Assembly (NCBI GenBank): GCA_937899725.1
Contig: CALCCA010000134.1
Span: 1-33,631 of the forward strand
Direction of reading: 5' to 3'
Length of the DNA: 33,631 nt
DNA from: an uncultured Halomicronema sp.
Lineage (GTDB): Bacteria; Cyanobacteriota; Cyanobacteriia; Phormidesmidales; Phormidesmidaceae
The notes under the pieces were generated by a model. That model made no database searches, was not told the DNA's origin, and saw nothing but the letters and a program-made list of their open reading frames with translations. Both the position numbers and the translations under genes were made by a program. This document shows positions 31,884 to 33,631 of the stretch, one piece after another. How positions within the stretch are numbered: the first letter of the stretch is position 1; each line of letters begins with the position of its first letter.

Positions 31884-31919
31884 CGACTCCGCTCAGCCGA
31901 CGTTCCTTGAGCGGAGTCG
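31884..31919. repeat. 12-bp perfect hairpin (CGACTCCGCTCA / TGAGCGGAGTCG)
   Basis: Arms at 31884-31895 and 31908-31919 surround a 12-base loop. Palindromes of this GAGCGGAGTCG type are familiar in cyanobacterial intergenic DNA. No T-tract adjoins it. Confidence 0.75.
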
Positions 31920-32274: not shown

Positions 32275-33165
32275 TCACTCTAAAAAGCGAGTGACTGTCG
32301 CGCTGTAAATCTTGTAAGGTTGCACTCCGGTCAGCGTTTCCTGTAGTGCACCATCTTTAAAAAACATGACGGCGGGCAAGCCTTTGAGGCTAAACCGTTT
32401 GGGAATCTCCTTGTTGGTATCAAAATTGATCTTTCGTACATTAACGCGATCGCCATAGGCCTCGGCTAGCTGATCGATCAGGGGCGCGACCAGTTTGCAG
32501 GGGCCACACCAAGACGCCATGCAATCTACCACCAGCAGTGACTCTTCAGCCAGTAGGGCATCCAGTTCCGCTTCATCTTGAATCAATTGAGCTGCCCCTG
32601 TGGTCGCCTGACCCAACTTCGTGACGGCCCGAGTGACTTCCGCAAATGGCAGGCTGCCGTTGATGGTTTCTAACTGCGATCGCTGCTGATAATAGTCGAG
32701 CAAAGGGGCGATTTCGGCCTCATAGTGCTCTAAACGCTGGCGAATCGTCGAAATCGTCTCACCTTGTCCCGGCTCAGAGGAGAGCCGGTGAATCAACATT
32801 CCGGTCTTCGCCTTCAGATGAATCGCTGTCGCTGCTGCCTGTCCCAACCCCAGCCACCACTCATCAAACGCTTGGGCCTGAGCTACCGTGCGCGGGAATC
32901 CCGTCAAAATCCAGCCTTTTAACATGATGTCGGGCTGTTCAAACCGCCGCTTGATCAGCTTCATCACGAGCGGATCTGGCACCAGCGTTTCGGCTTCGAC
33001 GTAGGCGCGGGCCTCAATGCCGATATCAGATGCTTGATCAATGGCCTCACGAATCAGCTGCCCTGTCGAAACGTGGGGCACACACCAACGTTCCGCGACG
33101 GCGATCGCCTGTTTTTCCACCCCAACACCAGGCGGCCCGAGGAGAATAAATTGCTTTAACTTCAT
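32275..33165 (-). CDS. Adenylate kinase-like domain fused to thioredoxin
   Basis: The ATG at 33165 has AGGA about 10 bases upstream. The 296-residue product joins two domains. Residues about 1-185 follow adenylate kinase: a P-loop-like GPPGVGVEKQA (10-20), VSTGQLIREAI (32-42), GWILTGFPRTVAQAQAF (84-100) and the C-terminal RQRLEHYEAEIAPLLDYYQQ. In register with GxPGxGKGTQ, the catalytic Lys is Val16 and GlyThr is Glu-Lys; Asp of DGFPR is Thr88 and the lid is short. Phosphotransfer is therefore doubtful. Residues about 195-296 are a complete thioredoxin with WCGPCK (219-224) and cis-Pro in KGLPAV (about 264). Possibly a redox protein with a nucleotide-sensing domain (inference). It is a single-gene unit. 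Confidence 0.88.
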   Translation of the reverse strand: MKLKQFILLGPPGVGVEKQAIAVAERWCVPHVSTGQLIREAIDQASDIGIEARAYVEAETLVPDPLVMKLIKRRFEQPDIMLKGWILTGFPRTVAQAQAFDEWWLGLGQAAATAIHLKAKTGMLIHRLSSEPGQGETISTIRQRLEHYEAEIAPLLDYYQQRSQLETINGSLPFAEVTRAVTKLGQATTGAAQLIQDEAELDALLAEESLLVVDCMASWCGPCKLVAPLIDQLAEAYGDRVNVRKINFDTNKEIPKRFSLKGLPAVMFFKDGALQETLTGVQPYKIYSATVTRFLE

Positions 33166-33631
33166 CGCATTGATCCTAATGAATCATTTTGGGGCCACTG
33201 CATCCTAGTCTTCAACCGTCCGCAACCCCGCCTTTTGTGCTCTGGGAGCACGACGCAGACAGGGATGATAACAGGCTGTATTGAGCCCGACAGATCAGGT
33301 GCGCGCACTGTTGCACTGTATCTTTTGGGCGCTGGGATCAAGGCGTTTTTCGCGGATTCTTTTAGATTTGTCCCACAGTGTATGGGCCTGAACTAGCGGA
33401 AAGATATGGCCTGGCAACAATTGGGATCAATGCTTTTGCTCCCAGGTTTAAGGGATTAGCAAGGCAATAAAGTCCCCGTTTATGACTGCGAGAGGGGGGA
33501 TGGGTGAGAGGGTGGATGGGATGTTGTTTTTGCGCAATGCCCTAATCAGTAGGTAGGAGATCGCCGATCTAACTAATAACGCGATGTGCAATTAAGCGTT
33601 TTCCAAGTCAGGCCTTAATCAAATCCTCAAA
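33166..33631. other. Intergenic end of window, nothing recognised
   Basis: No gene, RNA or strong inverted repeat is seen. It includes the promoter side of the kinase-thioredoxin gene. A gene starting beyond the window cannot be excluded. Confidence 0.4.

Follow-up and report, generated by a model that had tools for sequence, protein, structure and literature searches.

The window, by which we mean the whole 33,631-nucleotide stretch analysed here (a complete contig of a cyanobacterial assembly, G000:C134), encodes an adenylate kinase-thioredoxin fusion, and this fusion is confirmed as a real, conserved gene family of some filamentous cyanobacteria. The pattern of residues retained and lost supports the view that its adenylate kinase (ADK) domain is a catalytically dead pseudo-kinase across the fused lineage, and its C-terminal thioredoxin (Trx) is apparently working. 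Our best explanation, to which we give roughly an even chance, is a clade-specific fusion of single origin in which a working thioredoxin is joined to a dead ADK serving as a docking module, derived from a gene cluster that encodes ADK and CBS-type proteins.

The fusion gene and its family

The gene is an unbroken 296-aa open reading frame with an ATG start at positions 32275-33165 of the minus strand, the strand on which all of its parts listed below also lie; direct reading of the sequence shows, at 33174-33177, the candidate ribosome-binding site AGGA, which precedes the ATG by 8 nt. The ADK half covers residues 5-184 (32614-33153), as delimited by a Pfam ADK match (residues 8-163, E = 2.3e-34) and by comparison of the predicted model with ADK structures (residues 2-189). 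It is followed by a linker of low pLDDT (residues 184-194, 32584-32616) and by the thioredoxin domain (residues 195-295, 32281-32583), recognized both by Pfam Thioredoxin (residues 199-283, E = 6e-21, 74.8 bits vs a gathering score of 23.5) and by phmmer sequence comparison with thioredoxins in the PDB (best E = 2.8e-21). The protein matches NCBIfam PRK02496 with an E-value of 4.2e-51, at 173.2 bits below the equivalog cut-off of 262, a cut-off that the intact cluster ADK of the same assembly also falls slightly under (250.4 bits), and it misses the thioredoxin equivalog cut-off of TIGR01068 (81.8 vs 96.8 bits). Among its 11 Pfam matches with E up to 1 there is neither an FAD/NADPH thioredoxin-reductase domain nor an NDPK domain.

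That both domains belong to one protein, as an earlier note on this DNA had proposed, is borne out by the Pfam matches to each domain and by the family itself. Among 41 distinct fused copies, 38 form a single continuous frame, two are broken (L001/L026 by a stop, L157 by a frameshift) and one is cut by a contig end (L048/L158); misassembly, or two separate proteins, is thereby ruled out. Our scan of genome contigs returned 24 loci, of which 23 match the query from residue 1 to 295 or 296 (22 in an unbroken frame, and L001 with its internal stop), and in L024 the match is confined to the thioredoxin half; the hosts of the fusion are Leptolyngbya, Nodosilinea, Adonisia, Halomicronema and relatives. 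The search for the same domain pair in other genomes that the note had suggested finds it, at E ≤ 1e-45, in 38 of 388 sampled Cyanobacteriia genomes, representing 10 of 159 genera and two families (36 genomes in the family of the window, 2 in the other). Three of the 38 carry damaged copies: G002 has the internal stop, G386 the frameshift, and the copy in G038 is ended by the contig edge. Because at least 20 genomes of the window's family are without a match at the same threshold, the gene appears to be dispensable. In a phylum-wide sample of 146 genomes, which evidently contains few relatives of the window organism, only the window assembly's own match, among the matches listed, spans both halves.

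The residue counts given below refer to 38 aligned fusions, these being the distinct fusions of more than 240 aa, selected by length from 46 distinct proteins; the eight left out are the fusions L001 (stop) and L048 (contig end) together with six unfused proteins. L157 from G386 also lies outside the 38, L156 duplicates L023 and L159 duplicates L020. At the domain junction (residues 184-198), 34 of the 38 have no ATG, and 17 have an ATG, GTG or TTG, so that internal initiation there is possible.

The nearest homologue of the window gene, L001/L026 from G002 (94% identity), reads an in-frame TAG at residue 120 where the window has AAG, and is either a pseudogene or the product of a sequencing or assembly error. 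In L157 the frame shifts just past a degenerate P-loop, GPPGIGVKSQ, which reflects either a genuine frameshift or an assembly error. Phage and plasmid genes are ruled out as the nature of the fusion: 0 of 90 matching phage records cover 80% of the query, and the 1 of 680 plasmid records that does so, a plasmid of Nodularia, carries the matches in two separate genes.

Nor does the fusion gene have a conserved neighbour: even the commonest neighbour families are present at only 8 of 22 loci. In the window, the next gene downstream encodes a TrkH-type transporter, and a perfect 12-base inverted repeat, CGACTCCGCTCA / TGAGCGGAGTCG (31884-31919), lies between the two genes. A Pfam scan of ten of the other open reading frames (1-31637) gives TrkH, RNase H, DUF2079, DnaX-type, Mrp/NADH-dehydrogenase-type, AIR-synthase-like (PurL-type), MacB/FtsX and HlyD efflux proteins among the products, and two frames are without a Pfam match.

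State of the two domains

The fold of the kinase half appears to be intact. An AlphaFold2 model of the window protein (23 family sequences) has a mean pLDDT of 86.3 and a pTM of 0.63, a value that makes the folds of the two domains more secure than their mutual arrangement; pLDDT drops below 50 at linker residues 187-189 and at residues 217-219 beside the thioredoxin active site. VIA-align, whose rows span only residues 2-189 and hence the ADK half, places residues 3-189 on human AK2 (2c9y; Z 23.7, rmsd 2.3, 186 aligned), and Foldseek ranks the adenylate kinase 4w5h first among matches to the model (E = 1.2e-16). The nucleotide fold that the earlier note thought retained is thus recovered by structure prediction.

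The catalytic residues are another matter. We take E. coli ADK numbering, and the residue roles that go with it, to apply to the columns of the family alignment, and assign the Lys13 position to Val16 of the window protein. The degenerate P-loop GPPGVGVEKQ (residues 10-19, 33109-33138), with Val in place of Lys, is present as first described. In the 38 aligned fusions the K13 column holds V in 28, L in 5, G in 3, A in 2 and K in none, so loss of the lysine is a constant of the family and its replacement by valine a majority form; G14 is kept in 1 and T15 in 2. The LID, of which the window protein has a remnant lacking RGRxDD (residues 128-140, 32746-32784), has fared no better, with R123 retained in 2, R156 in 0, D158 in 4 and D159 in 0 of 38, and all four missing from the window copy. 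By contrast, the 4 cluster ADKs in the alignment retain all of the catalytic residues considered, from K13 through R167, and 32 other unfused ADKs retain nearly all (K13 in 31, R156 in 30). The substitution of Thr for the Asp of DGFPR, to which the earlier note also drew attention, holds for the window protein (TGFPR, residues 88-92, 32890-32904) but not for the family, in which the position is D in 19, E in 16, T in 2 and A in 1, the window sharing its Thr with just one other member.

Conservation in 36 unfused ADKs defines 60 columns. Of these, the 11 ATP or catalytic columns are retained in the fusions at 0.30, vs 0.68 for the 42 columns that have neither this role nor an AMP contact (permutation P = 0.0016), which indicates that ATP chemistry has been lost selectively. 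All 40 fused copies in which the P-loop can be read (the 38, L001 and L157; L048/L158 ends before it) are without its lysine, and with no fused homologue carrying an intact Lys, the loss of catalysis that the earlier note had thought probable is supported for the lineage as a whole. An altered P-loop might instead serve some other reaction, or the role of Lys13 might have passed to a basic residue immediately after it. This we regard as highly improbable: a K or R does stand one position downstream of K13 in 21 of 38 fusions, and R119 (38 of 38) and R167 (31 of 38) are kept, but the downstream basic residue is not conserved, being Glu in 6 of 38, and hardly any fusion retains R123, R156 or either Asp of the LID pair.

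The same column test bears on the idea of a redox protein tuned by adenine nucleotides. Here the dead ADK would bind AMP or ADP in its NMP pocket and alter the activity or partner choice of the thioredoxin, coupling energy charge to redox state; we consider this rather unlikely. Nucleotide binding is possible, since several AMP-pocket residues remain (Q92 in 37, G85 in 36 and R88 in 34 of the 38 fusions), and above all in the window copy, which alone of the 38 has T31, keeps R36, L58, V59, G85, R88 and Q92 as well, and so looks more nucleotide-competent than the rest of the family. The family pattern, however, gives no positive support. The 7 AMP-contact columns are retained at 0.69, vs the background of 0.68 (P = 0.29 for higher retention), and therefore give no hint that the AMP site has been specially preserved. 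A residue other than Thr (Met in 32) stands at position 31 in 37 of 38 fusions, Arg36 is retained in 25 and lost in 13, and L022, L047 and L049 are missing a large part of the NMP-binding segment, deletions that fit a scaffold better than a nucleotide site. Adenine-nucleotide tuning, as the earlier note framed it, is accordingly possible but unsupported.

In the thioredoxin half, both active-site cysteines, a further cysteine at 215 and Pro264 (the cis-Pro position) are each present in 38 of 38 fusions. The intact WCGPCK reported for the window protein is there (residues 219-224, 32494-32511), but as a family form it is in the minority, the motif being WCGSCK in 29, WCGPCK in 6, and WCGACK, WCGSCQ and WCSSCK in one each.

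Codon comparisons show the ADK domain to be under purifying selection, though maintained less tightly than the thioredoxin. In divergence bins of 21, 62 and 125 pairs, median dN/dS is 0.089, 0.135 and 0.208 for ADK and 0.065, 0.069 and 0.101 for Trx, and for the one pair that falls in the lowest bin the values are 0.255 and 0.044 (the bins hold 209 of 703 pairs, the remainder being outside the limits of the script). Between the window copy and L001, with the stop codon omitted, dN and dS are 0.040 and 0.218 for ADK and 0.017 and 0.163 for Trx, and members of the family share on average 59% identity in the ADK and 71% in the Trx domain. Residues 63-92 are the most conserved ADK segment (mean entropy 0.67 bits, vs 0.80 for the Trx domain) and the LID is the most variable segment examined (2.02 bits).

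If the thioredoxin alone mattered and the ADK half were a slowly decaying passenger, then internal deletions in three members, the stop in L001/L026, the frameshift in L157 and an ADK dN/dS above that of Trx, reaching 0.255 in the lowest-dS pair, would all be expected. We nevertheless find this very unlikely, given median ADK ratios of 0.09-0.21 in the well-filled bins, a frame unbroken in 38 of 41 copies, a segment (residues 63-92) conserved at least as well as the thioredoxin, and a single strongly supported clade spanning 10 genera. An ADK dN/dS that can reach roughly double the Trx value, the existence of two broken copies and the apparent dispensability of the gene also count against the docking explanation that we prefer.

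According to that preferred explanation, the thioredoxin end would act as a dithiol-disulfide exchanger, and the dead ADK fold, held by selection, would be a docking or specificity module that, instead of transferring phosphate, guides the thioredoxin to a single partner or a small set of them. Docking is the simplest role for the ADK half because a dead ADK fold and an intact thioredoxin are found together under purifying selection; it is a role that we infer. The family would offer a clean natural example of a fold from a central metabolic enzyme that has gone dead across a whole fused lineage and is retained all the same. If the dead domain docks partners, they would define new cyanobacterial thioredoxin clients; if it senses nucleotides, a single protein would link energy charge to thiol redox control.

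ADK/CBS clusters and the likely origin of the fusion

At six loci an ADK with its P-loop lysine adjoins CBS-type genes: in G000, the assembly of the window (L055/L124), in G002 (L057), G012 (L058/L125), G020 (L059) and G353 (L119), and on a Nodularia spumigena plasmid (L123). In G000 the cluster (L124:11031-15990, on contig G000:C198) runs in the order ADK, plant-type [2Fe-2S] ferredoxin, Trx, an 86-aa open reading frame, CBS-CP12, then another CBS-like stretch; upstream of it, in divergent orientation, lie a gene for a four-CBS protein and a fragment of a recombinase. Clusters of this kind bring together an ADK, as a rule a related Trx, an 86-aa-type frame and CBS genes; of the six, five have the ferredoxin, which the Nodularia cluster is without, four have the divergent multi-CBS gene and recombinase fragment, and the order is rearranged in L119. 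The CP12 part is shown by Pfam in G000 (L124) only, the CBS genes of the other clusters having been found by similarity.

Five of the six cluster ADKs look intact. The sixth, on the Nodularia plasmid (L123:11998-12654), is a separate gene next to a Trx gene and keeps the P-loop lysine, but may be partly degenerate and impaired, because it reads DGFPS and RGHSDD. The plasmid that carries it is mobilizable.

The cluster ADKs are the nearest relatives that we found for the ADK domain of the fusion (47% identity), and the cluster thioredoxins are about 57-60% identical to its Trx domain. In the midpoint-rooted ADK tree, in which the Nodularia row is flagged for odd composition, the 38 fusions form a single clade (100/100), and the fusions and the six cluster ADKs stand opposite 32 other ADKs across one branch (100/96). 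Within this grouping the cluster ADKs form a grade around the fusions, with weak support (84/81) at the fork uniting the fusions and three cluster ADKs; because the fusion stem is long (0.95), the exact attachment of the fusions is uncertain. In a Trx tree of 110 columns the fusion thioredoxins are again one clade (100/99), and cluster thioredoxins were not recovered there as their specific sister. From these comparisons we consider it likely that the ADK half of the fusion derives from a cluster of the ADK/CBS type, and plausible that the Trx half derives from the same cluster. On our preferred explanation, then, the ADK half, and plausibly the Trx half, would have come from a cluster encoding ferredoxin, CBS and CBS-CP12 proteins, and after fusion both the kinase activity and the old gene neighbourhood would have been lost.

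The setting of the nearest ADK relatives, which adjoin CBS genes (CBS-CP12 in G000) and related thioredoxins, also gives some encouragement to adenylate gating. Against it, the related model in which CBSX proteins, proposed as Trx modulators, act on thioredoxins was unsupported for three targets tested (PMC7921703). A CBS-Trx-CP12 network is a matter of speculation in print (PMC3906501). That the dead ADK would be an AMP/ADP receptor on the thioredoxin, and moreover one derived from an ADK-ferredoxin-thioredoxin-CBS-CBS-CP12 cluster, we hold to be quite unlikely.

Relation to known proteins

A thioredoxin joined to a pseudo-enzyme is already known in kind, and it is the ADK/CBS cluster that is the unexpected genetic relative. 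Judged by title and the opening of the abstract, the papers that we found do not describe the fusion itself, in a search that has most subscription journals outside it. Adenylate kinase proper (PF00406; PRK02496) shares with the fusion its fold, the GxPG turn, the GFPR-xxxQ segment and R119, but has the P-loop lysine and the RGRxDD LID, both of which are missing from the fusion. Chlamydomonas ADK3 is an active kinase. Like the fusion, it is an adenylate kinase bearing a redox-related appendage, but the appendage is a CP12-type tail and not a thioredoxin, in the part of PMC9406205 that was available.

NTRC, as presented in the accessible part of the cyanobacterial thioredoxin review PMC9025218, resembles the fusion in having a C-terminal thioredoxin joined, in cyanobacteria, to another enzyme fold; its partner is a thioredoxin reductase, whereas that of the fusion is a dead ADK. 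The word 'adenylate' is absent from the main text of that review. NME8/NME9 (TXNDC3/TXNDC6) likewise combine Trx with a nucleotide-kinase fold that is mostly held inactive, but they are animal proteins with NDPK instead of ADK and with the Trx at the N-terminus, and intrinsic Trx-reducing activity is reported for neither in the available text (PMC13256974).

The cluster ADK and Trx of L124 differ from the fusion in being separate genes, with an intact GKGT loop and with CBS and CBS-CP12 genes adjoining. Across 194 sampled genomes, 63 have a relative of the Trx, 72 have a CBS or CBS-CP12 relative, and 14, counted by hand at the cut-offs used, have both within 3 kb; a strict ADK cut-off leaves 10 ADK matches, of which only those in G000 and G012 adjoin a Trx-CBS pair. 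Other arrangements were also seen. L061 and L081 are Trx-CBS versions without ADK within the stretch fetched, and L098 has a Trx, an 86-aa-type frame, a recombinase fragment and a multi-CBS protein. The 86-aa frame itself contains cysteine, lies between Trx and CBS-CP12 (L124:14388-14645) and has no Pfam match; of 376 Cyanobacteriia genomes, 238 have a relative of it at E ≤ 1e-8. Finally, at G126:C1:4793848-4796386 an ADK match and one of two CBS/CBS-CP12 matches are separated by less than 1 kb, so that ADK and CBS genes are linked in a different family as well.
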